50,470 nucleotides of DNA from a virus: the IMG/VR virus record IMGVR_UViG_3300043598_000003, positions 1 through 50,470 of that record; one strand, 5' to 3'. A program made the position numbers and the translations under genes. Position 1 is the stretch's first letter, and every line of letters begins with the position of its first letter. Under the pieces are notes generated by a model. The model was not told the DNA's origin. It ran no database searches and saw only the letters and a list, made by a program, of their open reading frames with translations. This document shows positions 3,264 to 39,244 of the stretch, one piece after another.

Positions 3264-3265
3264 GC

Positions 3266-21632: not shown

Positions 21633-21661
21633 TAGACGCGAATCGCGGCGTAGGCTAGCGT
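21633..21661 (+). promoter_or_regulatory. Early promoter 1, degenerate palindrome
   Basis: TAGACG (21633-21638), 17-bp spacer, TAGCGT (21656-21661), then TGTACTCG. The element GACGC-GAATC-GCGGC (21635-21649) is a one-mismatch copy of the palindrome found at the other early promoters. A leader hairpin with a GGAA loop follows at 21680-21695 (CCGGGG/CCCCGG). It reads toward the gene at 21892. Confidence 0.6.
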
Positions 21662-21784
21662 TGTACTCGTTCGGATCGGCCGGGGGGAACCCCGGAAGCC
21701 CGGACGATCGGGAGCCCGGACGGAAGGCGTTAGGCGCGTCGGACGGGTCGCCGAGAATCTCGAAAGCACCACCCGAACGGAGTA

Positions 21785-21813
21785 TCGACCAGCCGCTAAA
21801 AGCGGCGTAAGGT
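21785..21813 (+). promoter_or_regulatory. Early promoter 2 with palindrome in spacer
   Basis: TCGACC (21785-21790), 17-bp spacer, TAAGGT (21808-21813), then TGTACC. The palindrome GCCGC-TAAAA-GCGGC fills 21792-21806, almost the entire spacer. CACCCGAACGGAG lies just upstream (21770-21782), and the same 13-mer precedes promoter 4 (24502-24514). Leader hairpins follow at 21831-21847 and 21855-21873, then GGAGG and the ATG at 21892. Confidence 0.65.
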
Positions 21814-21891
21814 TGTACCTAGAACGGACCGGCTCCGAAGGGGAGTCGGGAGGACGGGAGTCGGAAGCTCCCGGTGTAATCGGAGGAAGCT

Positions 21892-22227
21892 ATGCGCTAC
21901 GGCGTGCCATCGAACTCAGCCCGGACGATCCGGGTCACCCGCGACAAGGTCGGCTCGTTCCGGCGCGGTAACCGGAACTCCGATGGCCTGCTCGGCAGGA
22001 CCACTCTCGAACACGACGACTCGATTTTCGACAAGGGGCACTACGTGCCCGAAACGGGCCGATTCGGCACCGGCTTCCTCAACGACCCGATTCCGGTCGT
22101 CACGGCGAGCCAGCCCTACGCCGACACACCGTTCGAGGCTCGGAAGCGGGCGCCGCGAAAGGTCTACGTCTGCCCCGGATGCGGCATCGTGCCGCCCCGG
22201 TCGGGCAAGTGCGACCAGTGCTGGTGA
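21892..22227 (+). CDS. Zinc-ribbon protein, first early gene
   Basis: 111 residues, first gene behind two tandem promoter-like sites; GGAGG 6 nt before the ATG. The N-terminal 80 residues are Arg/Gly-rich ('RTIRVTRDKVGSFRRGNRNSDGLLG') and likely disordered or nucleic-acid contacting. The C-terminus 'VYVCPGCGIVPPRSGKCDQCW' has two CxxC pairs, a classic zinc ribbon. It could modify host transcription or replication, but no specific family is recognised. A UUCG-loop terminator follows immediately, so it is a monocistronic unit. Confidence 0.75.
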   Translation: MRYGVPSNSARTIRVTRDKVGSFRRGNRNSDGLLGRTTLEHDDSIFDKGHYVPETGRFGTGFLNDPIPVVTASQPYADTPFEARKRAPRKVYVCPGCGIVPPRSGKCDQCW

Positions 22228-22233
22228 GGTGAG

Positions 22234-22251
22234 GCGCCCCTTCGGGGGCGC
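22234..22251 (+). terminator. Terminator with TTCG tetraloop
   Basis: GCGCCCC (22234-22240), loop TTCG, GGGGCGC (22245-22251), 7 nt after the stop of the first early gene. Very stable C(UUCG)G hairpin; no U-tract. Confidence 0.75.
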
Positions 22252-22329
22252 ACCATCCCGGGGCCAGGGCGTTAGCTGCCCGGCTTAAACGACCCGCGCG
22301 GAAATAGGGCGCCCGCATCTTTTTAAGGA

Positions 22330-22365
22330 CTCCCCGAAGGGGAGGGCCATCTCCCTACGGGAGAT
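22330..22365 (+). promoter_or_regulatory. Two tandem leader hairpins
   Basis: CTCCCC-GAA-GGGGAG (22330-22344) and ATCTCCC-TAC-GGGAGAT (22349-22365), 29 nt before the GTG at 22394. The first resembles the leader hairpins behind other early promoters (CTCC-GAAG-GGAG type). No clear promoter of the shared family was found just upstream, so they may be processing or termination signals. Confidence 0.45.
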
Positions 22366-22393
22366 AATACGAACGAGCGCGAAGGAGAGAACT

Positions 22394-22573
22394 GTGAGTG
22401 ACCGGATGGCTAAGGCTGGCTGGGTAACCGCTAGTGTGCTCGCTGTGGGCCCCGTGCCCACTGTGGTGGGGCTCGGTGCGATTGCCGGGTACCGCGCGAT
22501 TAAGCGCCACCAGGCGCGGAAGCTGGACAGGGAGATCGCAGAGCTGCTGGAAGTGTTGGCGAGGCTCTCGTGA
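22394..22573 (+). CDS. Small membrane protein
   Basis: 59 residues, GTG start, GAAGGAGAG 4 nt upstream. One or two hydrophobic stretches ('WVTASVLAVGPVPTVVGLGAIAGY', roughly residues 10-33) are followed by a basic/amphipathic helix ('RAIKRHQARKLDREIAELLEVLARL'). This is an N-out single-pass or hairpin layout. Codon use and the GTGA overlap with the next tiny gene support translation. Role unknown; early small membrane proteins can act in superinfection exclusion. Confidence 0.6.
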   Translation: MSDRMAKAGWVTASVLAVGPVPTVVGLGAIAGYRAIKRHQARKLDREIAELLEVLARLS

Positions 22574-22653
22574 TCGCTCCGTTGGTGATCGTGGCCGTGC
22601 TCGTTGGCCTCTACCTGGTTGTTGGCCGAATTCGTTTCGGCTCCTGGAAATAG
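22570..22653 (+). CDS. Tiny single-pass membrane protein (27 aa)
   Basis: 27 residues, GTG overlapping the previous stop (GTGA). Almost wholly one hydrophobic helix ('PLVIVAVLVGLYLVV', residues 4-18) with a basic end ('GRIRFGSWK'). Coupling to the preceding membrane protein gene is the main evidence that it is real. It may form a complex with that protein. Function unknown. Confidence 0.5.
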   Translation: MIAPLVIVAVLVGLYLVVGRIRFGSWK

Positions 22654-22656
22654 GAC

Positions 22657-22685
22657 TAGACGCGCCGCGTATCGCGGCGTATAGT
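22657..22685 (+). promoter_or_regulatory. Early promoter 3 with palindrome in spacer
   Basis: TAGACG (22657-22662), 17-bp spacer, TATAGT (22680-22685), then TGAACTAC. GCCGC-GTATC-GCGGC occupies 22664-22678, leaving one base on each side. A 7-bp leader hairpin with a GGAA-type loop follows (22693-22699 / 22707-22713), then GGAGGAGG and ATG 22736. Confidence 0.7.
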
Positions 22686-22735
22686 TGAACTACGGCCCCC
22701 GGAAGAGGGGCCGGAAAACCCTGGAGGAGGGTACG

Positions 22736-22879
22736 ATGTACCGACGTGAAATCCCGGCTCGTGTTCGTAGGGCTCAGGAACTGCGCAGCAGCGGGGTGAC
22801 CGAACCGCAGCCGCTTCCCAAGCACAAGGGCTCGCGGAAGACGCGCAACGCGATGGCTATCCGGGAGCAGGTGGCCTGA
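22736..22879 (+). CDS. Small basic protein
   Basis: 47 residues from ATG 22736, chosen because GGAGGAGGG lies 5 nt upstream; an earlier in-frame ATG would lie inside the leader hairpin. Arg/Lys-rich throughout ('YRREIPARVRRAQELRSSG', 'KHKGSRKTRNAMAIREQ'), net strongly basic, which suggests nucleic-acid or ribosome contact. No family recognised. First gene of a run of seven tightly packed small genes. Confidence 0.6.
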   Translation: MYRREIPARVRRAQELRSSGVTEPQPLPKHKGSRKTRNAMAIREQVA

Positions 22880-22880
22880 G

Positions 22881-23018
22881 ATGTCCTTTCCCGATGTTGA
22901 CCCCGATGCGGAAGCGTTCGAGGCCGCAGCAGAGGCTGAGCGCCGTTACGAGCGGCACCTGGAAACCGATCTCGACTACCGGGATGAGGTCTTCCGTGAC
23001 CTTGGGGAGGAGTGGTGA
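22881..23018 (+). CDS. Small acidic protein
   Basis: 45 residues, one base after the previous stop; the stop overlaps the next start (TGATG). Composition is Glu/Asp/Ala-rich ('DPDAEAFEAAAEAERRYERHLETDLDY'), helical. No motif. It forms part of the compact early operon; a role as DNA mimic or protein-binding helix is conceivable, but there is no direct evidence. Confidence 0.55.
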   Translation: MSFPDVDPDAEAFEAAAEAERRYERHLETDLDYRDEVFRDLGEEW

Positions 23019-23248
23019 TGTCTGGCGAGGATGCCCATCTGGAAGCGGACTATGAGGACCGCTACGTAGTGGAGGACTTCCAGGAGGAGTGGTCCCCCAT
23101 GGATGACGAGGATGAGGATTATGAGTGCGCGGGCTGCGGCGAGCGCGCCAGTGGCGAGATGGGTGAGTTCTTCAACCCCGATAACGGCGATGAGGAGTTT
23201 GGCGTGTACCACGTATCGTGCCGGCCAGAGGGATGGGAAGTGTCGTGA
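23018..23248 (+). CDS. Acidic CxxC protein
   Basis: 76 residues from ATG 23018 (overlaps previous stop; a GTG 6 nt earlier is less likely). The first 40 residues are very acidic ('DYEDRYVVEDFQEEW', 'DDEDEDYE'). Then 'CAGCGERASGEMGEFF' and a later 'YHVSC' give a CxxC plus one Cys/His arrangement resembling a one-sided zinc finger of the kind found in HNH or Cys-rich phage proteins. Function unknown. Confidence 0.65.
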   Translation: MSGEDAHLEADYEDRYVVEDFQEEWSPMDDEDEDYECAGCGERASGEMGEFFNPDNGDEEFGVYHVSCRPEGWEVS

Positions 23249-23361
23249 GACTGCCGGAATGGGCCAAGGCGCCCGGCATGGAATGGACTCCGGGCGAACT
23301 GGAGGAGTGGTTCGGCGACGACCAGGACGACTTCGAGGATGAGGGGGATTACGATGAATGA
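23245..23361 (+). CDS. Very small acidic protein
   Basis: 38 residues, GTG start overlapping the previous stop. 'LPEWAKAPGMEWTPGELEEWFGDD' then 'DDFEDEGDYDE'; the tail is nearly all acidic. The next gene begins inside its end. It is accepted because stop/start coupling is seen on both sides. Confidence 0.5.
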   Translation: MRLPEWAKAPGMEWTPGELEEWFGDDQDDFEDEGDYDE

Positions 23362-23611
23362 AGAGGACCTGTGTGTTGAGCGCGACCTAGGCAACACGCC
23401 GTGTAGCGGCGACGTGCTGTCCTATCTGTCGAAGTCTGGCCTAACGGTTACCCTGCGGTGCGAACTCCATCAGGATGAACACCGCGAGCGAATGGAGGAA
23501 CTGGAGGGAAGGCTCCAGCGGGATTACCCCGGATACGACAACCCCCATAGCTCGCCACCGGCCTGGTTCGATCCGACGTACGCTGGCGAGAGGTGGGATG
23601 ATGACTACTGA
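23354..23611 (+). CDS. Conserved actinophage Cys/His small protein
   Basis: 85 residues from ATG 23354. The arrangement 'LCVERDLGNTPCSGDVLSYLSKSG', 'LRCELHQDEH' and then 'RLQRDYPGYDNP' with the C-terminal 'WFDPTYAGERWDDD' matches a frequently seen small actinophage protein. C-x9-C...C-x2-H suggests a zinc site. The closing 'FDP-x-x-AGERWD-x-D' is characteristic. Its biochemical role is not known to me. Confidence 0.75.
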   Translation: MNEEDLCVERDLGNTPCSGDVLSYLSKSGLTVTLRCELHQDEHRERMEELEGRLQRDYPGYDNPHSSPPAWFDPTYAGERWDDDY

Positions 23612-23918
23612 GTTGGCGCCTTCCCTTTGGGACCGTTGGTGCCGGTGGGATGCTCGACAAAGTGAAGGCGGCAATCCGGGCGACGAGGTGCGCATTGCGC
23701 TCCGCGCGGATGGCTCGCTGATGATCCTGGACGAGTGGGGCTGGTTCCTGATCGTCAAGACCGGGCCTGGCGTCGTCGGTGGCGAAGAAGTTGCGGAATT
23801 GTTAAAGCTGGAAGACTCGAATGCGCGGCGAGAAGAAGTGTACATGGAGCCTGCTTGGCTATGGGGCTATTTCGATATGTTCCAGGAATTGCTGAGCCCG
23901 ACTACTAACCCGGAGTAA
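23598..23918 (+). CDS. Hypothetical protein
   Basis: 106 residues from ATG 23598 (an ATG at 23601 is equally possible); GAGAGG lies about 5 nt upstream, and the start overlaps the previous gene's end. Trp-rich and mixed alpha/beta: 'LWDRWCRWDARQSEGGNPGD', 'DEWGWFLIVKTGPGVVGGEE', 'PAWLWGYFDMFQELL'. No motif recognised. It is last in this operon and is followed by the lipoprotein gene with a 44-nt gap. Confidence 0.6.
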   Translation: MMTTELAPSLWDRWCRWDARQSEGGNPGDEVRIALRADGSLMILDEWGWFLIVKTGPGVVGGEEVAELLKLEDSNARREEVYMEPAWLWGYFDMFQELLSPTTNPE

Positions 23919-23962
23919 TTCGCTTCGGTCCACGTTAGACCAAAGACCTTGGAGGTCACCAT

Positions 23963-24496
23963 ATGAAGAAGACTGTTGTTGCTCTGCCCGTTGCTGCCTT
24001 CGCCTTCCTGGCGCTCGGCGCGTGCGGAACCCCGGCCCCGACCACCGTGGCCACCACGAGTGGCTTCCAGCCGGCCGACCCCCCGGCCACCGTCTCGGCG
24101 CCCTACATCCCGGTGGTTGAACTCCCCCTGGCCCCGGCAGCTCCGGTTACGGAGCGCGAGTGGGCCCTGATCGCCAAGAACGCCGATGGCCACGTTGGCC
24201 AGCGAGTTGTCGTGTATGGCCAGATCACACAGTGGGACGGCGCTACCGGGGCGAGCACTTTCCGGGCCAACGTCGGGGCTGTCAAGCACGGCGCGCAGTA
24301 CGGCTGGGTGTCGGAGTACAAGACGAACACGATCCTGACCGGTGACCCTACCGTGCTCGGCGACGCCGTGGAGGGTGACCTGATCAAGGTAGAGGCCACC
24401 GTGAACGGATCGCTCAGCTACGACACGGCCATCGGCGGAAGCTCCAACGCGCCGCAGCTCACGGTGACGAAGCTGATTGTTGTAGGGCACGTCTGA
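23963..24496 (+). CDS. Phage-encoded lipoprotein
   Basis: 177 residues, GGAGG 6 nt before the ATG. Type II signal peptide: 'MKK' n-region, hydrophobic core, lipobox LGAC with Cys21. A Thr/Pro/Ala-rich linker (about 22-65) follows, then a beta-rich domain with 'HVGQRVVVYGQITQWDG' and 'EGDLIKVEATVNGSLSYDT', reminiscent of an OB-fold exposed on the outer face of the membrane. Lipoproteins of temperate and virulent phages can block superinfecting phages, so exclusion is one option. Protein-level proof is absent. Confidence 0.75.
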   Translation: MKKTVVALPVAAFAFLALGACGTPAPTTVATTSGFQPADPPATVSAPYIPVVELPLAPAAPVTEREWALIAKNADGHVGQRVVVYGQITQWDGATGASTFRANVGAVKHGAQYGWVSEYKTNTILTGDPTVLGDAVEGDLIKVEATVNGSLSYDTAIGGSSNAPQLTVTKLIVVGHV

Positions 24497-24516
24497 GACG
24501 TCACCCGAACGGAGGA

Positions 24517-24545
24517 TAGCCGCGATAAGCGGCGCAGAGTAACAT
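24517..24545 (+). promoter_or_regulatory. Early promoter 4 with palindrome over -35
   Basis: TAGCCG (24517-24522), 17-bp spacer, TAACAT (24540-24545), then TGTACTTG. GCCGC-GATAA-GCGGC is at 24519-24533, so it overlaps the -35 half. CACCCGAACGGAG lies just upstream (24502-24514). A short GGGAGG/CCTCCC hairpin follows (24557-24570). The transcript leads to the gene at 24648. Confidence 0.65.
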
Positions 24546-24647
24546 TGTACTTGTTCGGGAGGGGCCTCCCTCCCCCGGCCGGTAACGCGGGACGGGACTT
24601 GAGGCCTGGCCCCTTCCGAACACCCCGCCTAACTCTGAAGGAGAGTT

Positions 24648-24815
24648 ATGAACGAGTACAAGCTGCAGGTAACGGTCAAGAACTATGACCGGAGCTGGAC
24701 CGGCCCGATGGAGCACACGCTCCGCGCGGAAGACCTAGCGGCCGCCAAGCAGAAGCTGTTCGCGGAGATGCAGGCCAAGTACGGCAACGGCAACTGGAAG
24801 AGGTACGGCTGGTGA
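24648..24815 (+). CDS. Small conserved-type early protein
   Basis: 55 residues, AAGGAGAG 4 nt before the ATG. 'YKLQVTVKNYDRSWTGPMEH' is an edge-strand pattern followed by a helix ('EDLAAAKQKLFAEMQAKYG') and 'WKRYGW', a small beta-beta-alpha layout. The next gene starts at its stop codon (GTGA). Unknown function. Confidence 0.6.
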   Translation: MNEYKLQVTVKNYDRSWTGPMEHTLRAEDLAAAKQKLFAEMQAKYGNGNWKRYGW

Positions 24816-24970
24816 AGAAGGCAGACGCGAACACGCTGTGGAAGCTGACCTGGGTCAAGGATGGCAAGGAGGAGACCGCGCGGGTACGCGGCGGTGCGCC
24901 GGCCGGTCATGCCGAAGTGATCCGGCGCTCGGGCGGCGAAGTCACGAAGATCCTGCGAGTGGAGGACTGA
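24812..24970 (+). CDS. Small early protein
   Basis: 52 residues, GTG start overlapping the previous stop. 'LWKLTWVKDGKEETARVRGG' and 'AEVIRRSGGEVTKILRV' suggest a small beta-rich fold. No motif. Coupled on both sides, so it is likely translated as part of the operon. Confidence 0.55.
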   Translation: MKKADANTLWKLTWVKDGKEETARVRGGAPAGHAEVIRRSGGEVTKILRVED

Positions 24971-25200
24971 TGAAGACGCGCCAAGCGATGATGATCCTGA
25001 TCGGAGAGGCCACTGCGGGCGGAGTGAATCCGGACAAGGTGAAGGAGGCTGTTGCCCACATCGAGAATGTGTTGGTGTATGCCGGAACGTCGGAGTACTT
25101 CCCGGATGGAGAGGATGGCCCGGCCACTGACCAATCGGTAATCGCGCTGCCGGAACTACTCGACATGATCATGGCCGGAACGGCCGGACTGGAGAACTGA
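24970..25200 (+). CDS. Hypothetical early protein
   Basis: 76 residues; ATG 24970 overlaps the previous stop (TGATG). Helical N-terminus ('QAMMILIGEATAGGVNPDKVKEAVAHIENVL') with an 'N-P-x-x-V' turn, then 'GEDGPATDQSVIALPELLDMIMAG'. The stop again overlaps the next start. No family recognised. Confidence 0.6.
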   Translation: MKTRQAMMILIGEATAGGVNPDKVKEAVAHIENVLVYAGTSEYFPDGEDGPATDQSVIALPELLDMIMAGTAGLEN

Positions 25201-25319
25201 TGGGTAAGTGCAGCGAGTGCGGCGAGCCCGCATGGGACAACAAGCACACTGACGGTGAGCCGCTGTGCCCGGTAATGGGCCCAGACGGATACGAACCAGG
25301 AGAGGAAGTGGAAGACTGA
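25200..25319 (+). CDS. Tiny CxxC protein
   Basis: 39 residues. 'GKCSECGEPAWDNKHTDGEP' then 'LCPVMGPDGYEP': a CxxC pair and a third Cys fit a small zinc knuckle. Start and stop both overlap neighbours (TGATG). Actinophages often carry such Cys-rich mini-proteins; function unknown. Confidence 0.55.
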   Translation: MGKCSECGEPAWDNKHTDGEPLCPVMGPDGYEPGEEVED

Positions 25320-25510
25320 TGGCGACCAACGTTATCTGGACCGGCGCGGGAGACCGCTACCACGCAACGCGGGAGTGCCCCAAGCTGCACACCGGGGTGC
25401 GCTCGGCCGAGGTACACGGGCGGAAGGTCCACCCGCAGAACACCACCTCGGTGGAGACGGCACTCCAAGCCGGTCGCACGAAGTGCCCGCACTGCGTGAC
25501 GGGGGAGTGA
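25319..25510 (+). CDS. Small CxxC/His protein
   Basis: 63 residues from ATG 25319. 'VIWTGAGDRYHATRECPKLH' followed by a C-terminal 'GRTKCPHCVTG' CxxC pair; Cys/His spacing allows one zinc site. 'YH-x-x-x-x-CP-x-LH' resembles short nuclease-associated sequences (as in Ada-like or competence-type C-x-x-x-H endings) but is too short to assign. Coupled to both neighbours. Confidence 0.6.
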   Translation: MATNVIWTGAGDRYHATRECPKLHTGVRSAEVHGRKVHPQNTTSVETALQAGRTKCPHCVTGE

Positions 25511-25839
25511 TGGGCGACATCCTGATCACTGGCGAGGTGGCGATGCAGCACGCCGAGGTGGCACGACTAGTCGGTGCGCTTTCGGCGGAATGCCGGGGCA
25601 TGAAGGTGAGCCGCCGGTCTGAGATCCAGCAAGCGGCGAAGTGGAGCGGCTCGGGCAAGCGAACCGCCAAGGGCGCCCTGGAAGACCTCCTGGTGTGGTA
25701 CTACGGCCAGGGTGGCACGATCAACGCGCTGTGGGGCAGCGTGGCGCGCGGACTCGGCGACGAGCGGGTGAGCAAGCTCAAGCGGAAGTGCCTGAAGGCG
25801 TCGCCGATCGCACAGGCAAGGATGGAGGCAGCGAAGTGA
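25510..25839 (+). CDS. Hypothetical helical protein
   Basis: 109 residues from ATG 25510 (overlap with previous stop). Basic and helical: 'MKVSRRSEIQQAAKWSGSGKRTAKGALEDLLVWYYG', then 'WGSVARGLGDERVSKLKRKCLKA'. A helix-turn-helix is not evident. It is the longest of the small genes in this run, suggesting a folded domain, possibly nucleic-acid binding from composition only. Confidence 0.55.
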   Translation: MGDILITGEVAMQHAEVARLVGALSAECRGMKVSRRSEIQQAAKWSGSGKRTAKGALEDLLVWYYGQGGTINALWGSVARGLGDERVSKLKRKCLKASPIAQARMEAAK

Positions 25840-25958
25840 CATGGACGTGCGAGTGTCGAGGAGATGGGTACTGCGCGCGATGTGCGGAGCATGGGCGCTC
25901 GGAGGATGCGCCAAATCCCCACTCGGGTCAGCTGGAGCTGGACTTGGAGGAGGGCTAG
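25836..25958 (+). CDS. Tiny zinc-knuckle protein
   Basis: 40 residues, GTG overlapping the previous stop. 'WTCECRGDGYCARCAEHGRS' contains C-x-C and C-x2-C, enough for one zinc site, followed by an acidic tail ('QLELDLEEG'). The stop overlaps the GTG of the nuclease-like gene. Probably real because both ends are coupled. Confidence 0.5.
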   Translation: MTWTCECRGDGYCARCAEHGRSEDAPNPHSGQLELDLEEG

Positions 25959-26335
25959 TGGCGCAAATCCGGGAATACCCGGCTTGGGTGGAAAAGGTCT
26001 ACGATGGTGACACCCTGACGGTGTTCGTGGACCTCGGATTCGATACCTGGCGGCACACCGATGTGCGACTTGTCGTTACCGGCAAGCTCGGCATCAACGC
26101 CATCGAGCTGAAAGACCCTGGCGGTAAGGAGGCCCGCGCGGAATTGCTGAGGCTCGCGCCATTAGGGTCAAGCGTTCAGGTCACCAGCTACGGCTGGGAC
26201 AAGTACGGCGGCAGAATCGACGCCGCAATCATTCTCGCGGATGGGCGAAACCTCGGCGAGGAATTGGTGCGGGCCGGATGGGCCGCGCAGTGGGATGGTA
26301 AGGGCGCCCGCCCATTGCCGAATTGGCCAAGATAG
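25958..26335 (+). CDS. Staphylococcal-nuclease-like (thermonuclease-fold) protein
   Basis: 125 residues from GTG 25958, chosen because it overlaps the previous stop and starts the domain. 'VEKVYDGDTLTVFVDLG' matches the SNase strand with Asp at residue 16, 'VRLVVTGKLGINAIEL' carries Arg37 and Glu50 near the positions of the catalytic Arg and Glu, and 'DKYGGRIDAAIILADGRNLGEELVRAGWAA' carries Arg86 and the conserved 'LV-x-x-G-x-A' end. The position of one Ca2+-binding Asp is Asn here (N47), seen in many relatives. Likely a nuclease or nucleic-acid-binding protein acting on host DNA. No signal peptide, so it is cytoplasmic. Confidence 0.8.
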   Translation: MAQIREYPAWVEKVYDGDTLTVFVDLGFDTWRHTDVRLVVTGKLGINAIELKDPGGKEARAELLRLAPLGSSVQVTSYGWDKYGGRIDAAIILADGRNLGEELVRAGWAAQWDGKGARPLPNWPR

Positions 26336-26343
26336 GAGTAGCT

Positions 26344-26424
26344 GTGCGGTTGTGGCTCGGAATTAACATCCCGATTTTCCCCTTTGTGTCGGTTGGTATC
26401 GGCAAGAGCTGGAGGCTATGGTGA
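26344..26424 (+). CDS. Possible 26-aa peptide
   Basis: 26 residues, GTG start with AGGAG 5 nt upstream. Hydrophobic with aromatic residues ('LWLGINIPIFPFVSVGIG'). Its end overlaps the next gene. It might be a membrane peptide or only a leader that couples translation. Low confidence that the product matters. Confidence 0.35.
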   Translation: MRLWLGINIPIFPFVSVGIGKSWRLW

Positions 26425-26561
26425 CAAGCGAGGAAATGCAGGCGGCCATCAAGGAGCAGACTCAGAAACTGTCTCCCAGGCTGATGCCTGAGCAGAGGGG
26501 CGAGATGGCCGCGGAATTGTACGATAGCCTGCGTGAGGCAGATGAGGATGGTGAGATCTGA
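26418..26561 (+). CDS. Small helical protein
   Basis: 47 residues from ATG 26418 with GGAGG 3 nt upstream, or GTG 26421. Entirely helix-prone and acidic ('EEMQAAIKEQTQKLSPRLMP', 'EMAAELYDSLREADED'). The stop overlaps the next start (TGATG). Unknown function. Confidence 0.5.
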   Translation: MVTSEEMQAAIKEQTQKLSPRLMPEQRGEMAAELYDSLREADEDGEI

Positions 26562-26728
26562 TGAAGGTCAAGAAGGTTTACGGCACGGAGACCATCGACG
26601 TGGTGCGGGTGCACAAGCCGCGCAACGGCGGCTCGCGGCTGCTCGGGGAGTTCCTGGACCGTGACGGCAAGGGTGACGAGCGCGCAGACGACTACATCGC
26701 CAAGAAGGGTCATGACCTGGTCGATTAG
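26561..26728 (+). CDS. Small basic/acidic protein
   Basis: 55 residues, ATG within the previous stop. 'KVYGTETIDVVRVHKPRNGGSRLLGEFLDRDGKG' suggests two strands and a loop; the C-terminus 'DDYIAKKGHDLVD' is helical. It is the last gene before a shared early promoter. No family recognised. Confidence 0.55.
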   Translation: MKVKKVYGTETIDVVRVHKPRNGGSRLLGEFLDRDGKGDERADDYIAKKGHDLVD

Positions 26729-26731
26729 GGC

Positions 26732-26760
26732 TAGACGTAGCCGCGAATAGCGGCTAGACT
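26732..26760 (+). promoter_or_regulatory. Early promoter 5 with palindrome in spacer
   Basis: TAGACG (26732-26737), 17-bp spacer, TAGACT (26755-26760). The palindrome TAGCCGC-GAATA-GCGGCTA spans 26738-26756 when extended, with core 26740-26754. It is the most symmetric copy (7-bp arms). The transcript leads to ATG 26799 with GGAGGG upstream. Confidence 0.7.
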
Positions 26761-26798
26761 CAGGGGCGAAGCGAACGAAGTCCTGAAGGAGGGCGAAG

Positions 26799-27401
26799 AT
26801 GAAGTGTGGGAAGTGCAAGCGAAGTGATCCGGGCGTGACGGTTGACCACTGCCGGACCTGCGACGGAAGGCAGCAGATCCCAGCCAGCACGTTCAGGGAG
26901 CCGCAGAACGTCAAGGCGTACAACCAGGCCGCGCACGCCGCGCGGAAGATTGGTGCCCGAACGTTCAACGACCAGTGGGAAGATATGGAGCGCGAAGAGC
27001 GCGAGGCTTCCGCCACCAAGGTCAAGCGCGACAGCCCCAGCGACCACCGCCGGAACGACATCTACGCGGAGCTGAATACCGCGCGGGACCAGATCCCAGA
27101 GGGTTCCTATGCCTTGAAGGCGAATGGTGACTGGAAGTTCTACCGGATCGACAAGCCGCAGAAGGGGCAGTGGGCCGGATACACCTTCCTCAAGGAACAG
27201 GCCGGCTCGGAATACTGGCCGGTGAAGCCGCTGCGGCGCGAGCTGGAGATCCTGCTCCGCATCGCCACCAATCCGGCGGAAGCATCGGCGAACTACGGTC
27301 ACAAGATCGGCGCGTGCGGTATCTGCCACCACCCCTTGACCAAGCCGGAGTCGATTGCGCGCGGGATCGGGCCGAAGTGCGCCGGGCGGATGGGCTGGTG
27401 A
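26799..27401 (+). CDS. Zinc-binding protein with DUF6011-like C-terminus
   Basis: 200 residues. N-terminal zinc ribbon: 'MKCGKCKRSDPGVTVDHCRTC' (CxxC...CxxC). The middle is helical ('NQAAHAARKIGARTFNDQW', 'DMEREEREAS'). The C-terminal motif 'YGHKIGACGICHHPLTKPES' then 'ARGIGPKCAGRMGW' is the widespread 'CGxCxxxLTxPxSxxxGxGPxC' signature used for zinc binding in phage proteins. It probably binds nucleic acid or a host protein; no enzymatic site. Single gene behind its own promoter. Confidence 0.75.
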   Translation: MKCGKCKRSDPGVTVDHCRTCDGRQQIPASTFREPQNVKAYNQAAHAARKIGARTFNDQWEDMEREEREASATKVKRDSPSDHRRNDIYAELNTARDQIPEGSYALKANGDWKFYRIDKPQKGQWAGYTFLKEQAGSEYWPVKPLRRELEILLRIATNPAEASANYGHKIGACGICHHPLTKPESIARGIGPKCAGRMGW

Positions 27402-27410
27402 ACAAAGTTG

Positions 27411-27439
27411 TAGACTTGTGGCGTCGGATACGCTACAGT
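27411..27439 (+). promoter_or_regulatory. Early promoter 6 (no palindrome)
   Basis: TAGACT (27411-27416), 17-bp spacer, TACAGT (27434-27439), then TGTACTAG. It lacks GCCGC-N5-GCGGC. Two leader hairpins follow: GCTCC-GAAGG-GGAGC (27447-27461) and CCGGT/ACCGG (27464-27480). GGAGG and ATG 27502 come next. Confidence 0.65.
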
Positions 27440-27501
27440 TGTACTAGCTCCGAAGGGGAGCGGCCGGTTCGGGAGACCGGTAAGGGTAACGGAGGAACCC
27501 G

Positions 27502-28649: not shown

Positions 28650-28683
28650 GCCGCTTTACGCGGCGGGGCCGATACGCTAGACT
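28650..28683 (+). promoter_or_regulatory. Early promoter 7 with palindrome
   Basis: GCCGC-TTTAC-GCGGC (28650-28664) contains TTTACG (28655-28660) as a -35-like hexamer; 17-bp spacer; TAGACT (28678-28683), then TGTGCTAC. A CGGG-ACGGAAG-CCCG leader hairpin follows (28693-28707), then GGAGG and ATG 28721. Confidence 0.6.
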
Positions 28684-32903: not shown

Positions 32904-33146
32904 ATGTACTGGACGGTTTTTCTCACGTCACTTGCTAGCTTCACTTGTGGCGCTGGCGTAGGATATGTTATACGGGCACGACAAGAAGCCTCGCGGCGGG
33001 CGGTCGAAGCTCTGCGACGAAGGAACGCTCTGCGAGATCGTGGCAGGACGCACCCGCGTCGGGCCGAGCATGAGGGGGAGCCCCCATCGCGGTCAAGCAA
33101 GATGCGGTACAGGAGCGAAAGGCCTGGTAAGCGGCCCGGCTCCTGA
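32904..33146 (+). CDS. Possible membrane-anchored basic protein
   Basis: 80 residues, with a weak SD (GGGACGGG) before the ATG. N-terminal TM segment ('WTVFLTSLASFTCGAGVGYVI', residues 3-23) then an Arg-rich cytoplasmic part ('RARQEASRRAVEALRRRNAL', 'HEGEPPSRSSKM'). A second frame in the same region (starting at 32965) is also open. The TM-plus-basic pattern and position after the helicase favour this frame, but the call is moderate. Confidence 0.5.
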   Translation: MYWTVFLTSLASFTCGAGVGYVIRARQEASRRAVEALRRRNALRDRGRTHPRRAEHEGEPPSRSSKMRYRSERPGKRPGS

Positions 33147-33168
33147 GAAGTTCAAAGAAAGTTGAAGA

Positions 33169-33202
33169 AAAGTCTAGACTTTCTCCGAGGATCGGCTAGA
33201 CT
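33169..33202 (+). promoter_or_regulatory. Early promoter 8 with a 14-bp palindrome
   Basis: AAAGTCTAGACTTT (33169-33182) is a perfect palindrome containing TAGACT (33175-33180); 16 bp later a second TAGACT (33197-33202), then TGAGATAA. It resembles the shared early promoters but carries a different palindrome. The ATG is at 33247 with AGGAGG upstream. Confidence 0.55.
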
Positions 33203-33246
33203 TGAGATAAGCCGGAAGAGCCCAAGAAACTACACAGGAGGACAAG

Positions 33247-33825: not shown

Positions 33826-33836
33826 TAGACTGCAAC

Positions 33837-33852
33837 CCCGGCTTCGGCCGGG
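33837..33852 (+). terminator. Terminator with TTCG tetraloop
   Basis: CCCGGC (33837-33842), TTCG, GCCGGG (33847-33852), 11 nt after the H1-like gene. Very stable small hairpin; no U-tract. Confidence 0.65.
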
Positions 33853-33855
33853 CGT

Positions 33856-33933
33856 TGTGGTGGAGGCTGGAACGCGAGTCGACAGAGTGGCCCGACCACC
33901 TAAGTTCGGCTCTAACTTCCAGCCTCCTCCACA
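33856..33933 (+). ncRNA. Long hairpin, candidate structured RNA
   Basis: The arms at 33856-33872 and 33917-33933 pair over 17 positions with a single mismatch; the 44-nt loop contains further weak pairing. It is placed 4 nt after the terminator and 40 nt before the next gene, i.e. in the gap only. The outer part GGAGGCT...AGCCTCC-T-CCA looks tRNA-acceptor-like, but the element is too short for a tRNA and lacks a normal T arm. Confidence 0.4.
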
Positions 33934-33973
33934 GCGAAGCGATACGCGTCGGAAGCGCGGGACAGGAGGAAGC

Positions 33974-34384
33974 ATGAAGCTATTTGTTGTGTGGTTGGAT
34001 GGCAAGACGCAAGAGTTCGGCAACGCGCACTGGTCTATAGAGGATGACAAGCACGGCAGGCCATGCATAATTAGCGTTGTAGGACGAGGCTTAGACTCCG
34101 CAGAAGCGATTCACATCCCCCTGGATAAGGTTCGGCTGTGGGGTGTAGATGACTTGGCCGGATTCGCGCAAGCTGTGATCCATGAGCTGGCTGTCAAAGA
34201 CACCCAGACAGAGGTTGCGTCTTGGCCCACTCCGACTCAGTCCGATCGGCTTCAATTACGAGATGCACTTGCGCGCATTCGCAGGCTGGAAGGCAAGATG
34301 AGCCGGATTGCGCCGGGCGCATTTCTGCCGGACTACCAGAATTCGGACGACACGACGGGACATTCTGATGATGCCAGCGGTTAG
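33974..34384 (+). CDS. Hypothetical protein
   Basis: 136 residues from ATG 33974, chosen because of GGAGGA 4-9 nt upstream. The frame is open upstream, but an extended N-terminus would overlap the structured hairpin. The N-terminus is 'MKLFVVWLDGKTQEFGNAHWS' with 'CIISVVGRGLDSAEAIHIPLDKV', a small beta-rich domain. The middle is helical ('DRLQLRDALARIRRLEGKMS'), and the C-terminus is Asp/Ser/Thr-rich. No family recognised. Confidence 0.65.
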   Translation: MKLFVVWLDGKTQEFGNAHWSIEDDKHGRPCIISVVGRGLDSAEAIHIPLDKVRLWGVDDLAGFAQAVIHELAVKDTQTEVASWPTPTQSDRLQLRDALARIRRLEGKMSRIAPGAFLPDYQNSDDTTGHSDDASG

Positions 34385-34517
34385 GCATGAGGTTACCGGC
34401 GATATGGCTGAGCGCGCGATAACGGCGCTGGAGCGGATCGCGGATGCGCTGGAGGACGCCAACAAGGATAGGCGCGAGCGTCATAGCCTGGAGGATTGGA
34501 AGGAGACGCAGAAATGA
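34368..34517 (+). CDS. Small helical protein
   Basis: 49 residues from ATG 34368; ATG 34404 (37 aa) is an equally good start. The helix 'MAERAITALERIADALEDAN' is a recurrent actinophage stretch ('ITALERIADALE'). The start overlaps the previous gene by 17 nt. Acidic/basic and probably a coiled-coil oligomer. Function unknown. Confidence 0.5.
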   Translation: MMPAVRHEVTGDMAERAITALERIADALEDANKDRRERHSLEDWKETQK

Positions 34518-34666
34518 GCAAACGGGAGTACGCCATTGATCCGCCACCAGATGTCAAGGTCAAGCTTTCTGACGGGTGTGCGCTAGACGGCAAGACGGAT
34601 GAGCACACTCACCAGCAGGACGAGTGGCAGGATCACATCGACAGACAGGATTACCGCCATGGTTAA
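34514..34666 (+). CDS. Small hypothetical protein
   Basis: 50 residues, ATG overlapping the previous stop. Mixed: 'EYAIDPPPDVKVKLSDGCALDGKTDEH', then His/Gln/Asp-rich 'THQQDEWQDHIDRQDYRHG'. The His-rich end could bind metal. The next start overlaps its stop by 8 nt. Real by coupling, function unknown. Confidence 0.5.
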   Translation: MSKREYAIDPPPDVKVKLSDGCALDGKTDEHTHQQDEWQDHIDRQDYRHG

Positions 34667-34970
34667 GAAGGCCAAGAAGAAGCTGAAGACCGGGCGCAAC
34701 AAGGCGGACACGGGAGACCGCATCGACCTGGACGGCGCGGGCGCGATCATCACGCTCGACAACGGCGACGTTCTGGTGACGCTGAAGGCTAAGCGAATTG
34801 TCGGAACTCGCATCGACAACAACCCGGCTGAGGGAACCGACGTTGGCTCGACCACGATCCGGCTGACGCTGGATAACGCTCTTGTGGTGAATCCGAATGT
34901 GCCTGTCGACAACACGCCACCGCCCAGCGCGGGGCCGGCTTCGGCGGATGAGCTTGATGCCGACGCGTAG
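34659..34970 (+). CDS. Hypothetical protein with basic N-terminus
   Basis: 103 residues from ATG 34659. The N-terminus is very basic ('MVKKAKKKLKTGRNKADTG'), then strand-rich 'IDLDGAGAIITLDNGDVLVTLKAKRIVG' and 'STTIRLTLDNALVVNPNV', ending in a Pro/Ala tail. A DNA-contacting small beta protein is possible. It ends inside the following nuclease gene (overlap 23 nt). Confidence 0.55.
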   Translation: MVKKAKKKLKTGRNKADTGDRIDLDGAGAIITLDNGDVLVTLKAKRIVGTRIDNNPAEGTDVGSTTIRLTLDNALVVNPNVPVDNTPPPSAGPASADELDADA

Positions 34971-36000
34971 AGCCCTCGAACGGCACCGCTCAGCGCCCAG
35001 GAGAGACGCGCTCGCGGGCGTGCCGCTACTCCGGACCTCAACGCGCCGTACGTTCCGGCAGTGCCGGCAGAGATGGTGGTGGGGCGTTGTCGAGGGCTAC
35101 GAGCCCAGCTTCCACAACTTCAACGCTCTGTGGTTCGGCACCGGGGTGCACCTGGCCCTAGCTGAATGGTACAAGCCGGGCAAGAAGCGCGGCGTACACC
35201 CGGTGAAGACCTGGAAGAAGTACGCCGATGATGAGTTCTCCTGGGCTCGCACCGGCGAGTACGGCACGCCAGAGGAGGAAATGGTAAAGGTTGGCGACCT
35301 CGGCGAGGCGATGCTGACCGGATACGTCGACAAATACGGCAAGGATCCTGAGTGGGATGTGATCGCGCCTGAGCGCGTCGGGCGCGTGCTCATTCCGCAT
35401 CCAGATAAGCCTGGCGAATTCATCGTGCAGTATGTGTTCACATTCGACCTGGTGTATCGAGACTTACACGACGGAATCATCAAGCTCGGAGAGCACAAGA
35501 CCGCCGCACAGGTTCGCCTTGGTCACCTGAGTCTGGATGATCAGGCCGGCTCATATCTGCCGATGGCAACCACCATTCTGCGGGATGAAGGTCTGCTGAA
35601 GCCCACCGATCGAATTGAGGTCATCACATACAACATCCTTCGCAAGGCGATTCCGAATCCGGACCCCCGTCCGAGGAATGCGGAGGGCAAGTTCTTGAAC
35701 CTGGATGGCACTGTGTCCAAGAGACAGAATGCACAGGCGCCATTCTTTGTCAGGGAGGATGTGGAGCGAGGTCGAGATGAACGCATTACCCAGGTGAAGC
35801 GCATTCAGGCTGAAGCCAGGGAAATACAGGAATGTCTGGACGACGAAAGCCGCGTCTACAAGAACCCAACCATGGATTGTAGCTACTGCCCATTCCTGCA
35901 GGTTTGCGAGCTACACGAGTCGGGCGGAGACTATGAGACTCTGCTGGCGTCAACATTCAAGAAACGCGATCCGAACGAACCATACCGGAAGTGGGCGTGA
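34948..36000 (+). CDS. PD-(D/E)XK exonuclease with Cas4/AddB-like Fe-S cysteines
   Basis: 350 residues from ATG 34948 (ATG 34957 is also possible). RecB-type nuclease core: 'FGTGVHLALAEWY' with His68, 'YVFTFDLVYRD' with Asp167, 'LGEHKTAAQ' with Glu182-His-Lys184. Cys39 in 'RQCRQRWWW' and C-terminal Cys311-x2-Cys314-x5-Cys320 ('DCSYCPFLQVC') give the one-plus-three cysteine pattern that binds a 4Fe-4S cluster in Cas4 and AddB. Probably processes DNA ends for recombination or replication. It sits upstream of a Sak4-like ATPase and SSB-like protein, a recombination set. Confidence 0.85.
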   Translation: MSLMPTRRALERHRSAPRRDALAGVPLLRTSTRRTFRQCRQRWWWGVVEGYEPSFHNFNALWFGTGVHLALAEWYKPGKKRGVHPVKTWKKYADDEFSWARTGEYGTPEEEMVKVGDLGEAMLTGYVDKYGKDPEWDVIAPERVGRVLIPHPDKPGEFIVQYVFTFDLVYRDLHDGIIKLGEHKTAAQVRLGHLSLDDQAGSYLPMATTILRDEGLLKPTDRIEVITYNILRKAIPNPDPRPRNAEGKFLNLDGTVSKRQNAQAPFFVREDVERGRDERITQVKRIQAEAREIQECLDDESRVYKNPTMDCSYCPFLQVCELHESGGDYETLLASTFKKRDPNEPYRKWA

Positions 36001-36001
36001 C

Positions 36002-36250
36002 ATGGAGGACATGGCACAGGAAGTCGAAACGCTGCCCCGAGAGCAGGCCGGGGAACTTGTGGAGGAATGCCAAGCTCGATTGATGAAGTTCCGGTCGCAT
36101 TGCCAAAATCAAATCGAGATGGCGGAAGAGAAGCGAGCATTCTGGTCGCGCGAGCACGATATCGTGACAACCTTCCTCGCGTCGGACATGTTCGCTCCGC
36201 AGCCCGAAAGAATGCCGAGCGCCAAGCGCAAAGAGCCAATGGCGTTCTGA
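36002..36250 (+). CDS. Small coiled-coil protein
   Basis: 82 residues, ATG one base after the nuclease stop (a second ATG at 36011). Helical and Glu/Gln-rich: 'EVETLPREQAGELVEECQARLMKFRSHCQNQIEMAEEK', suggesting a coiled-coil dimer. The C-terminus is Met/Pro/Lys-rich. Function unknown; position suggests a partner of the nuclease/recombination genes. Confidence 0.55.
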   Translation: MEDMAQEVETLPREQAGELVEECQARLMKFRSHCQNQIEMAEEKRAFWSREHDIVTTFLASDMFAPQPERMPSAKRKEPMAF

Positions 36251-36273
36251 ACACCAACTGAAAGGAAGTTGCT

Positions 36274-36621
36274 ATGCCGCTCCAGCCAGGGCAGGCTCCG
36301 CCCAGGAGCAATCTGCCGCCGAAGGGTGCGAGTAAGTCGCGCCGGTACGCGGTGGCTTGGGTCCCGCGAAAGCAGGACTCAAAGGATGAGACCGGGTGGT
36401 ACTGGGAGGAGGTCAAGTCGACCAATTGCCAGAGCGCCACGAACGCGCTACTGAAGAAGCTGCGGGAGAAGTACGACAAGCCGGAGATGAAGAAGACTGG
36501 TCTGGTCGTGCTCGCCATGGAGCTGATTCCCGCGCGGCAGACTCTGGAGGAATACCTCGGTCTGGTGGAGGATGACGCCGAGGATGAAGAGGCCGAGGAG
36601 GAGGATGACGACACCGAGTGA
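36274..36621 (+). CDS. Hypothetical protein with acidic tail
   Basis: 115 residues, GGAAGTTG before the ATG. Basic N-terminus ('PPKGASKSRRYAVAWVPRKQD'), a compact middle ('WYWEEVKSTNCQSATNALLKKLREK') and a highly acidic end ('EDDAEDEEAEEEDDDTE'). The acidic tail overlaps the next gene's start. Function not recognised. Confidence 0.55.
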   Translation: MPLQPGQAPPRSNLPPKGASKSRRYAVAWVPRKQDSKDETGWYWEEVKSTNCQSATNALLKKLREKYDKPEMKKTGLVVLAMELIPARQTLEEYLGLVEDDAEDEEAEEEDDDTE

Positions 36622-36853
36622 CAAAGAGGTCGAAGAGCTGCGGCGACAGGTTGAGAGCTTGCGCCCCAAACCGGAGGAGGAGCCAGTGAGCGGACGGTAT
36701 CGTGTCGAGCCGACAAACAAGCCGACCGGAAAGCATGAGTGGAAGGTAACCGACGACAAAACCGGCAACACGGTTTATCCGGGAAGCAGCCTGGGAAAGG
36801 CGCACACCATGGCCGACCGACTGAACAAGGAGAGGCCGAGCAAAGATGAGTAA
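36605..36853 (+). CDS. Small hypothetical protein
   Basis: 82 residues from ATG 36605 (overlap with the preceding acidic tail; SD GAGGAGG). A shorter form from GTG 36686 has a better ribosome site (GGAGGAGGAG) and gives 'MSGRYRVEPTNKPTGKHEWKVTD' onward. The C-terminal 55 residues ('KTGNTVYPGSSLGKAHTMADRLNKE') look like a small DUF2188-type fold, with 'K-T-G-x-x-x-x-x-S-L-x-x-A'. Which start is used is open. Confidence 0.5.
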   Translation: MTTPSDKEVEELRRQVESLRPKPEEEPVSGRYRVEPTNKPTGKHEWKVTDDKTGNTVYPGSSLGKAHTMADRLNKERPSKDE

Positions 36854-36974
36854 GAAGCTGCCTGGTGATGTGGAGCCGGCGGATGTGATCGCCGCCAACA
36901 TCTTCGCCGGAAACTGGGATGACCCGTTGCGGTATCCGATTGATGGTGACGAGGCCGAGGAGGATGAGGGGTAA
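36846..36974 (+). CDS. Tiny acidic protein
   Basis: 42 residues, ATG overlapping the previous stop region. 'LPGDVEPADVIAANIFAGNW' then 'DDPLRYPIDGDEAEEDEG'. Acidic. The stop overlaps the next start (TAATG). Real by coupling; function unknown. Confidence 0.45.
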   Translation: MSKKLPGDVEPADVIAANIFAGNWDDPLRYPIDGDEAEEDEG

Positions 36975-37159
36975 TGGCACGCCCGTTGAAGGCCAATGGA
37001 CTCCAGGAAGCGGGCGCCCTCAAGACCCGCATCCGGCGCCAAAGGGCTCTCGGGCGGATCGGTCAGGATGACCACGATTACCTCATCGAACATCTTGAGA
37101 AGATTGAAGCGAGGATTGTTGAAATGGACGAGGAGACAGAGGAGGAGTCGTGGTTGTAG
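36974..37159 (+). CDS. Small helical protein
   Basis: 61 residues; ATG overlaps the previous stop (TAATG). 'QEAGALKTRIRRQRALGRIGQDDHDYLIEHLEKIEARIVEMD' is helical; a pair of helices with 'IG-x-x-D-x-x-x-L' is a recurrent small-protein pattern in actinophages. It ends by overlapping the ATPase gene. Function unknown. Confidence 0.55.
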   Translation: MARPLKANGLQEAGALKTRIRRQRALGRIGQDDHDYLIEHLEKIEARIVEMDEETEEESWL

Positions 37160-37995
37160 CAAAGCGCAAGGCCCCGCCGATCATCTCCTTGACCGAGTAT
37201 GACGAGTCGATCAACTTCATGGTCTATTCCGACTCGGGTATCGGCAAGACAACCCTCATGGGAACGGCCCCGCAAAGCCTATTCCTTGGTGTGGAAGCGG
37301 GCATCATATCCGCCAAGCGCGCGGGCAGCACGGCGGACTTGTGGCCAATCAATACCTGGGCCGATCTGGAGGAGGCACAGCGTTACCTGAGAGACGGAGG
37401 TTGGAAGAAGTATCGCTGGGTGCTGCTCGACTCGCTCACCGATATGCAGGAGCTGTTGTGGCGGCACATTCTCGACAAAGTGGTCAAGGACAACCGGTCG
37501 CGTGACCCCGATCTCCCAGCCATTCAGGATCACCTCAAGATGCAGTTGATGTTCCGTAGGTTCGTCAAGTTGTTCTGCGATCTGCCCTGCAACGTCGCGT
37601 TCTCCGCGCTGCCAATGAACATCGAGACGGCGGAAGGCGAGGAACGCGTCATGCCACTGATTACCGGACTGAAAGGAGCGCTCTCCCATTACACCGTAGG
37701 CAAGATGTCGTGCGCTGCGCATATGAAGATTGTCCGCACCAAGAGTGGGGCGACGAGACGGAGGCTCGTCTGGGAGCAGGATGGCGCTTACATTGGCAAG
37801 GACCGGTATGGCTGTCTCGCACCGTACACCGATGACCTGACTATCCCGCAAATTGAGGAACGCATCGAATCCTCGGGGACAACGAGTCGCGCGGAGGCTC
37901 GGGCGGGCCGGGACAGCGTAACGCCGATTGCCGCAGCAAGGCGCCGGCGCAGAGTACCAAGCACCACAACAAATAGGAGGAAAGCAAATGGGTAA
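37150..37995 (+). CDS. Sak4-like RecA-fold ATPase (single-strand annealing / recombination)
   Basis: 281 residues from GTG 37150. Walker A 'YSDSGIGKTTLMGT' (GKT 32-34) and Walker B-like 'YRWVLLDSLTDM' (Asp94), then a RecA-fold core. The pattern 'FLGVEAGIISAKRAGS' and 'LWPINTWADLEEAQRYL' is typical for Sak4 and related phage RecA-like ATPases. In the family it promotes annealing or strand exchange with a partner SSB. Its end overlaps the start of the SSB-like gene by 8 nt, and the nuclease is nearby, so the three likely act together. Confidence 0.8.
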   Translation: MVVAKRKAPPIISLTEYDESINFMVYSDSGIGKTTLMGTAPQSLFLGVEAGIISAKRAGSTADLWPINTWADLEEAQRYLRDGGWKKYRWVLLDSLTDMQELLWRHILDKVVKDNRSRDPDLPAIQDHLKMQLMFRRFVKLFCDLPCNVAFSALPMNIETAEGEERVMPLITGLKGALSHYTVGKMSCAAHMKIVRTKSGATRRRLVWEQDGAYIGKDRYGCLAPYTDDLTIPQIEERIESSGTTSRAEARAGRDSVTPIAAARRRRRVPSTTTNRRKANG

Positions 37996-39154
37996 GTGGA
38001 AGGCGAGTGGTGGCCAAAGCGCTGCCACGATCGAGGCTGAGGTCGCATTCGACCAGTACGATGAGGCCACATACGGCGTGCCGAAGAAGGGGCCATACCG
38101 GGTCCGACTGCGGCGCCTGGAGGGCTCGGAGACCGGAGAGAACTCCAAGGAGCCCGGCACGCCAATGCTCAAGGGCATGCTGATCATCTCGGAGCCGAAG
38201 GGCACCAAGAAGGCCGTCTACAACGGCTACATCATGAACCTGAACCGCGTGGCGAACGAGGAGCAGGCTGGTCGGATGAACCAGTTCCTGACCGCGCTCG
38301 CGGGCGGGCCGGGCGCGAAGGCCAAGGCGCTCATCAAGGCGTTCTGGACCACGGGATGCGTTACCGACTCGAATGGCATGATCACGAAGATCGGCACTAT
38401 GGTGATCAAGCCGGATGGCGATGGCATCCTGCTCGGTGTCAACACGCGGAACGACAACTACAACGACGAGAAGCGCATCGCGCCAACTTCCTTTATGGCG
38501 GAGTCCGCAATGCCGAAGCCGGCGGCTGCGGATGAGGAGGATGACGACGAAGAGGATGACGGTGTCGAGGTTGTTGATGACGACGAGGATGAGGAAGTTG
38601 TCGACGACGAGGACGAGGAGACCGATGAGCTGAGCGAGGAGGAGGCCGAGCTGATGGAGGAGTTGGACGGGCTCACGCTCGCCAAGCTCAAGGCTCGCGC
38701 CAAGGCCAACGGCTCCAAGCTCGCGGAGTACAAGGCGCTCGACAAGGATGGCCTGATTGAGCTCATCATGGGCCAGGAGATCGAGGTTGAGGACGACACC
38801 GACGAAGAGGACGAGGAGGATGAAGACGAGCCAGAGGAGGACGACGAGCAGGCCGAGCGCCGCGAGGAACTGGAAGCGCTGACTGCCGCCAAGCTCCGCG
38901 CGGTGGCGAAGTCGCTCGGGCTTAAGCTGGCCGAGTACAAGGGCAAGGATGTTGACGAGTTGGTCGAACTCATCCTGGCCAACGAGTTTGCCGAAGACGA
39001 GGACGAGGACGAGGACGACACAGAGGACGACACCGAGGATGATGAGGAGGACGAGCCCGAACCGCCGAAGCGCACCCGCACGGCAGCGCGGGGGAAGCCG
39101 GCCGCCGCGACGAAGGCGCGTGCCGGGCGGAAGGGGAAGGAACCGCCCTTCTGA
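37988..39154 (+). CDS. SSB-like protein with two SAP/HeH-like repeats in acidic linkers
   Basis: 388 residues, AGGAGG 7 nt before the ATG. Residues 1-170 form a compact domain ('AFDQYDEATYGVPKKGPYRVRLRRLEG', 'KAVYNGYIMNLNRV', 'TKIGTMVIKPDGDGILLGVN') that fits an OB-type single-strand-binding core paired with Sak4 ATPases. Then come Asp/Glu-rich linkers (180-225, 263-295, 333-358), each separated by a 35-residue repeat (about 226-261 and 296-332; 'LTLAKLKARAKANGSKLAEYK' type, with LAEYK in both). The C-terminus is basic then 'GKEPPF', recalling the -PPF/-IPF tip by which SSBs recruit partners. Domain calls are by pattern. Confidence 0.75.
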   Translation: MGKWKASGGQSAATIEAEVAFDQYDEATYGVPKKGPYRVRLRRLEGSETGENSKEPGTPMLKGMLIISEPKGTKKAVYNGYIMNLNRVANEEQAGRMNQFLTALAGGPGAKAKALIKAFWTTGCVTDSNGMITKIGTMVIKPDGDGILLGVNTRNDNYNDEKRIAPTSFMAESAMPKPAAADEEDDDEEDDGVEVVDDDEDEEVVDDEDEETDELSEEEAELMEELDGLTLAKLKARAKANGSKLAEYKALDKDGLIELIMGQEIEVEDDTDEEDEEDEDEPEEDDEQAERREELEALTAAKLRAVAKSLGLKLAEYKGKDVDELVELILANEFAEDEDEDEDDTEDDTEDDEEDEPEPPKRTRTAARGKPAAATKARAGRKGKEPPF

Positions 39155-39215
39155 TGAGGTGAGCCCGAGTAACCGCTGACCGGCGCGTATGAGGCGCTAA
39201 GCGGTAGGGTCCGAG

Positions 39216-39244
39216 TAGCCGCGCTAAGCGGCTTCCGCTACGAT
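39216..39244 (+). promoter_or_regulatory. Early promoter 9 with palindrome over -35
   Basis: TAGCCG (39216-39221), 17-bp spacer, TACGAT (39239-39244). GCCGC-GCTAA-GCGGC is at 39218-39232, overlapping the -35 as in promoter 4. A 13-bp leader hairpin (39247-39295) begins almost at the expected transcription start. The next gene starts at 39333 with GGAGGAGG upstream. Confidence 0.65.

Follow-up and report, generated by a model that had tools for sequence, protein, structure and literature searches.

Dispersed phage operators at early promoters are a known kind of regulatory element. In the Streptomyces phage phiC31, the phage repressor, the gene of which is known, binds conserved inverted repeats that are distributed across the early region close to early promoters. 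Here, we analyzed a 50,470-bp viral record (IMGVR_UViG_3300043598_000003, or G000; the entire stretch is called the window), a fragment of an uncultured actinobacterial phage in which the 15-bp palindrome GCCGC-N5-GCGGC recurs at rightward early promoters. A preliminary description of this DNA had proposed that the palindrome is read by a dimeric DNA-binding regulator controlling the early operons.

Several published systems invite comparison. In the temperate Bacillus subtilis prophage SPbeta, a 15-bp repeat named SPBRE recurs in the promoter regions of some ten phage genes at scattered positions; its master repressor MrpR, a tyrosine-recombinase-like protein, was only identified decades later than the repeat (PMC10516654). 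Cluster O mycobacteriophages contain 34 copies of the 17-bp repeat TGTTCGG-N3-CCGAACA, four of them near predicted promoters and many within genes; dimeric regulators were suggested by the authors, the protein being unknown (PMC4351075). The operators and stoperators of the temperate cluster A phages (L5/Bxb1) are 13 bp long and asymmetric; a monomer binds them, and most lie off promoters (PMC6550527, PMC9283540).

Six exact copies of GCCGC-N5-GCGGC are present in the window, starting at 21792, 22664, 24519, 26740, 28650, and 39218 as described before, whereas shuffled sequences contained 0.38 copies on average and no shuffle reached six. Among all palindrome families with 5-bp arms and gaps of 0 to 12 bp, this one ranked first (P = 9e-7, matched by 0 of 60 Markov replicates). 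All six exact copies are intergenic, with a noncoding share of the window of 10.7% (binomial P = 1.5e-6). The one-mismatch copy at 21635-21649 was also found; it is a hybrid, GACGC-GAATC-GCGGC, with one arm of the window type and one of the type found in the sister phage G001 (see below). Its left arm may have kept the A because this arm doubles as the -35 hexamer TAGACG. The center of the palindrome had been called variable, and N5 does differ between sites; it is not free, however, since all seven sites conform to (G/T)-N-(A/T)-(A/T)-(A/C), i.e. K-N-W-W-M, with A/T in 26 of 35 bases.

The nine promoter-like -35/-10 pairs reported earlier could be confirmed. Their -35 variants are TAGAC(G/T), TAGCCG, TCGACC, and TTTACG, the -10 hexamer is TANNNT, and the latter is followed by TGTAC in four cases, by TGTGC in one, and by TGA in two. 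The promoters with their predicted operators are as follows:

P1, 21633-21661, + strand: TAGACG-17-TAGCGT followed by TGTAC; hybrid operator 21635-21649 over the -35 and the spacer.
P2, 21785-21813, + strand: TCGACC-17-TAAGGT followed by TGTAC; operator GCCGC-TAAAA-GCGGC at 21792-21806 within the spacer; upstream of gene 21892-22227.
P3, 22657-22685, + strand: TAGACG-17-TATAGT followed by TGAAC; operator GCCGC-GTATC-GCGGC at 22664-22678 within the spacer; upstream of gene 22736.
P4, 24517-24545, + strand: TAGCCG-17-TAACAT followed by TGTAC; operator GCCGC-GATAA-GCGGC at 24519-24533 over the -35; upstream of gene 24648.
P5, 26732-26760, + strand: TAGACG-17-TAGACT; operator GCCGC-GAATA-GCGGC at 26740-26754 within the spacer; upstream of the DUF6011 gene 26799.
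P6, 27411-27439, + strand: TAGACT-17-TACAGT followed by TGTAC; without operator; upstream of the DUF2786 gene 27502.
P7, 28650-28683, + strand: TTTACG-17-TAGACT followed by TGTGC; operator GCCGC-TTTAC-GCGGC at 28650-28664 over the -35 TTTACG; upstream of gene 28721.
P8, 33175-33202, + strand: TAGACT-16-TAGACT followed by TGAGA; without operator; upstream of the Lys/Ala-rich gene 33247.
P9, 39216-39244, + strand: TAGCCG-17-TACGAT; operator GCCGC-GCTAA-GCGGC at 39218-39232 over the -35; upstream of the Pyr_excise gene 39333.

Every palindrome of the window, i.e. the six exact copies and the near copy, overlaps the -35 or the spacer of a promoter with a 17-bp spacer. An exact filling of the spacer had been claimed for three sites; this has to be corrected, as a 15-bp palindrome in a 17-bp spacer leaves 1 bp on each side at 21792 and 22664, and 2 and 0 bp at 26740. 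The TANNNT hexamer is located 21 bp from the palindrome start at three of the seven sites, and the offsets take four values overall (15, 16, 21, and 28). On the + strand of the window, TAGAC-N17..19-TANNNT occurred five times, always intergenic, vs. 0.42 expected. A generic sigma-70 scan detected P3 alone because the -35 is TAGAC here.

A sister phage, G001 (IMGVR_UViG_3300028379_000001, 68,185 bp; positions refer to its reverse complement), was located by an exact-peptide search with DnaE. It is colinear with the window at a DnaE identity of 68% and contains about 17 kb absent from the window, including terminase and portal genes. GCCGC-N5-GCGGC does not occur in G001; its strongest palindrome family is GACGC-N5-GCGTC, with nine copies vs. 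0.26 expected, beyond all 60 null replicates. Eight of the nine are intergenic. The preliminary description had named equal frequency inside genes as an outcome speaking against it; intragenic copies amount to 0 of 6 in the window and 1 of 9 in G001. At six of eight sites the distance between the palindrome start and TANNNT is exactly 21 bp (P = 1.6e-12), the left arm forming the end of a TAGACG -35. Two further, imperfect copies are located at 35473 and 35588. Hence, between the two phages the 5+5+5 geometry, the number of sites, and the position at promoters are kept, and at all exact sites each arm is altered symmetrically at a single base; in G001 the change affects both arms symmetrically at all intergenic exact sites.

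In both phages the element is present at orthologs, namely at the Pyr_excise (pyrimidine-dimer glycosylase) gene (window 39216, G001 52144, the latter with the promoter TAGACGC-CGTGA-GCGTC) and the DUF6011 gene (window 26732, G001 40648). The DUF2786 gene has an operator only in G001 (promoter 41243), and the Lys/Ala-rich gene has a promoter without operator in both. At the latter promoter, AAGTCT(A/C)GACTT over the -35 is common to window 33160-33180 and G001 about 46405-46420. G001 also shows tandem operators at 38536-38581 (starting at 38536 and 38567), 31 bp or about three helical turns apart, ahead of a single promoter.

The palindrome is absent from the phages P3.1, Troll4, Hawkeye, Sadboi, and LittleFella and from the related records G002 to G004. 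The latter three contain a few TAGAC/TANNNT pairs, slightly above chance; none was found on the forward strand of P3.1. Pattern scans for GTAGAC...TGTAC and for promoters of the TAG[A/C]CGC type gave largely unrelated single matches; only G001 had several. As TAGAC occurs at the palindrome-free promoters 27411 and 33175 and in other relatives, promoter and palindrome are separate elements, and it looks as if the operator was added, or kept, only in the branch leading to the window phage and G001.

Within each genome, one arm sequence is common to all exact sites while the centers vary. This shows that sequence is conserved and not pairing alone; a common arm is needed by a dimeric protein and not by an RNA hairpin, which favors recognition by a dimer. 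The proposed dimeric regulator is further supported by G001, with its same geometry, same promoter position, and symmetrically changed arms. At the sequence level, the palindromes are a real, promoter-locked family of predicted operators with comparative evidence for symmetric recognition. We consider it probable that a symmetric dimer, most likely phage-encoded, occludes the early promoters and that its specificity changed together with the sites between the two sister phages. In the window, this protein would recognize (A/C)GCGGC half-sites 5 bp apart; occupying the -35 together with the spacer between -35 and -10, it would prevent host RNA polymerase from reaching the rightward early promoters and thereby shut down or time the early operons. 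The same system would operate in G001 with (A/G)GCGTC half-sites, operator and regulator having changed together since the two phages split. We infer protein binding, repression, the phage origin of the protein, and early timing. Repression by steric hindrance suits the data better than activation, since in the window the palindrome, at four different distances from the -10, lies over the region contacted by the polymerase.

Several observations weigh against such a regulator. The system is common to two phages only. As stated in the preliminary description for the window, and likewise in the 68-kb G001, no regulator gene could be recognized: HTH_3 (PF01381), RHH_1, and HTH_17 gave no match in either record, nor did the integrase families PF00589 (up to E = 0.1) and PF00239. 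A classical lysogeny repressor is therefore not indicated, although the window lacks about 17 kb present in G001. Among 58 small G001 proteins scanned against Pfam, the only helix-turn-helix domain was a weak HTH_23 (E = 4e-4), which was assigned by position to a terminase-small-like protein just upstream of a terminase-like gene. One gene of the window deserves mention:

25510-25839, + strand: orphan protein of 109 aa, weak candidate regulator.

The sole relative found for its product is encoded by G001 38068-38406, the gene that comes first after an operator-promoter of G001, and both proteins are orphans with regard to PHROGs, Pfam, NCBIfam, and GenBank phages. AlphaFold predicted helical structures of low to middling confidence for the candidate, and a Foldseek search with these models gave no significant structural match; it thus stays a weak candidate and serves as a lead only. 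Its restriction to the window and G001 is one that other genes show as well. That an apparently virulent lineage possesses a regulator of an undescribed DNA-binding family, perhaps the 25510/G001-38068 pair, co-evolving with the promoter-locked operator, is quite unlikely. If true, GACGC and GCCGC arms and the hybrid site would represent a snapshot of a specificity change.

Could a host protein bind these sites instead, so that the phage defers to or senses the state of its host? A host regulator such as a ClgR-like XRE protein would agree with the failure to recognize a DNA-binding repressor in either phage record, and alphaproteobacterial phages using sites of the host regulator CtrA provide a precedent (PMC9437464). 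The ClgR consensus of actinobacteria, WNNWMGCYNNNRGCGWWS, requires A/T outside the core (PMC2905415) and resembles the G001 sites (TAGACGCYNNNRGCGTC) except for the penultimate and the variable last position; by inspection, however, the W positions adjoining the CGC/GCG core are occupied by C and G in all exact window sites. Moreover, ClgR is an activator (PMC2905415), whereas the sites cover the promoter core, and the arms of two close phages are not the same, although a conserved host regulator would usually retain its specificity. The fit is moderate for the G001 sites and poor for those of the window, so that ClgR is disfavored; a host regulator in general appears rather unlikely. Another view regards the palindrome as a part of the promoter itself, needed by an activator or a phage-modified polymerase for early transcription. 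The nearly fixed position relative to TANNNT in G001 (offset 21 at 6 of 8 sites) and a -35 hexamer of TAGAC instead of TTGAC are in its favor, but the four offsets in the window would rarely be tolerated by activation, the predicted promoters P6 and P8 lack the palindrome, the spacers, at 16-17 bp, are already of optimal length, and some TAGAC-TANNNT pairs persist in three relatives without operators. We judge this very unlikely.

The preliminary description had already argued against hairpins arising by chance, and RNA hairpins, terminators, and chance indeed do not fit the data, whereas a DNA operator read by a dimer does. Hairpins or terminators closing the upstream operons at their 3' ends are suggested by several palindromes located 5-23 bp past a stop codon (window 24519, 26740, and 28650; G001 37922, 40650, and 41245) and by arms that could pair as 5-bp GC stems. 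Yet other copies, including the tandem ones before the first early gene, are 48-1114 bp away from any stop, pairing does not require exact arms common to all copies of a genome, and the lock to TANNNT would stay unexplained. No T-run follows the palindromes and a terminator scan listed none of them; this highly improbable reading was rejected. In favor of chance, or of the composition of a CGCG-rich genome, CGC-N5-GCG is frequent in a GC-rich putative leader (20.9-21.5 kb), but the tests by shuffling, Markov replicates, intergenic position, and offset, together with the independent recurrence of the geometry in G001, leave this reading with a negligible probability.

The window genes run from near the major capsid protein (MCP) over tail genes and the rightward early region to helicase, exonuclease, Sak4-like protein, DnaE polymerase, thymidylate synthase, a RuvC-like gene, and primase. 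DnaE matched best to that of Nocardia phage P3.1 (58%), followed by cluster D mycobacteriophages and Gordonia phages; the phage is an actinophage akin to cluster D mycobacteriophages and P3.1. Megablast of the early region against GenBank phages gave no match and hence no near relative, an MCP search in IMG/VR gave none either, and a search of genome contigs returned distant SNF2 helicases only. Upstream of the first early promoter, about 700 bp (20900-21620) are GC-rich, CGCG-rich, and apparently noncoding, possibly a leader or an origin; similarly long gaps exist in G001 (34697-36032) and P3.1 (2231-3320).

Other phages showed repeats of their own. The related contig L179 (IMGVR_UViG_3300046536_000116) contains repeated intergenic type-II hammerhead ribozymes ahead of small genes, two above the Rfam threshold (1231-1297 and 2140-2208), and about six more TGTTG-N5-CAACA sites that look alike. 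In Gordonia phage LittleFella (L011), the palindrome TAC-TANNNT-AGTA, with a -10-like hexamer at its center, occurs four times (3149, 16405, 21810, and 25769), two copies lying clearly between genes and one at the annotated start of a gene; it is possibly another lineage-specific promoter operator. Contig L154, identical to Gordonia phage Buggaboo across the helicase, has five copies of TTGACGTCAA (525, 4176, 6750, 14713, and 17393), some apparently over a TTGACG -35.

In uncultured phages, sites of regulation rarely come to light. The matched operator sets of the two sister genomes, with a single symmetric base exchange in each half-site, amount to a natural experiment on a switch of specificity. 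Since family libraries do not contain the regulator, its sites offer themselves as bait for a new transcription factor of phage (or host) origin in actinobacteria.

Compared with the known systems, the palindromes display the features of the general kind at the level of sequence: a repeated, near-identical site, enriched over chance, intergenic, and overlapping or abutting promoter elements. Closest by architecture is SPBRE/MrpR, likewise one short element repeated at the promoters of scattered phage genes; its sequence is unrelated, however, and the PF00589 search gave no MrpR-like protein match. Closest by appearance and open status is the cluster O repeat, which shares invariant arms, a variable A/T-rich center, and lineage specificity but differs in its arms, in N3 vs. 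N5, and in 34 copies vs. six or seven, here all on promoters. With cluster A phages the window shares many repressor sites per actinophage genome and motifs diverging among relatives with repressor specificity (PMC6550527, PMC9283540); unlike L5-type stoperators, the sites are symmetric and all exact window copies are at promoters. ClgR sites have a core of the same CGC-N5-GCG type. Classical temperate immunity, with integrase and CI/Cro-like repressor, differs by the families PF00589, PF00239, and PF01381, which, as mentioned above, had no match in the window or in G001, two records of uncertain completeness. The phiC31 repeats are longer and belong to a temperate phage. By the features tested, the palindromes are members of none of SPBRE/MrpR, cluster A operators/stoperators, and cluster O repeats; their general kind is already known, and this promoter-locked family is new.

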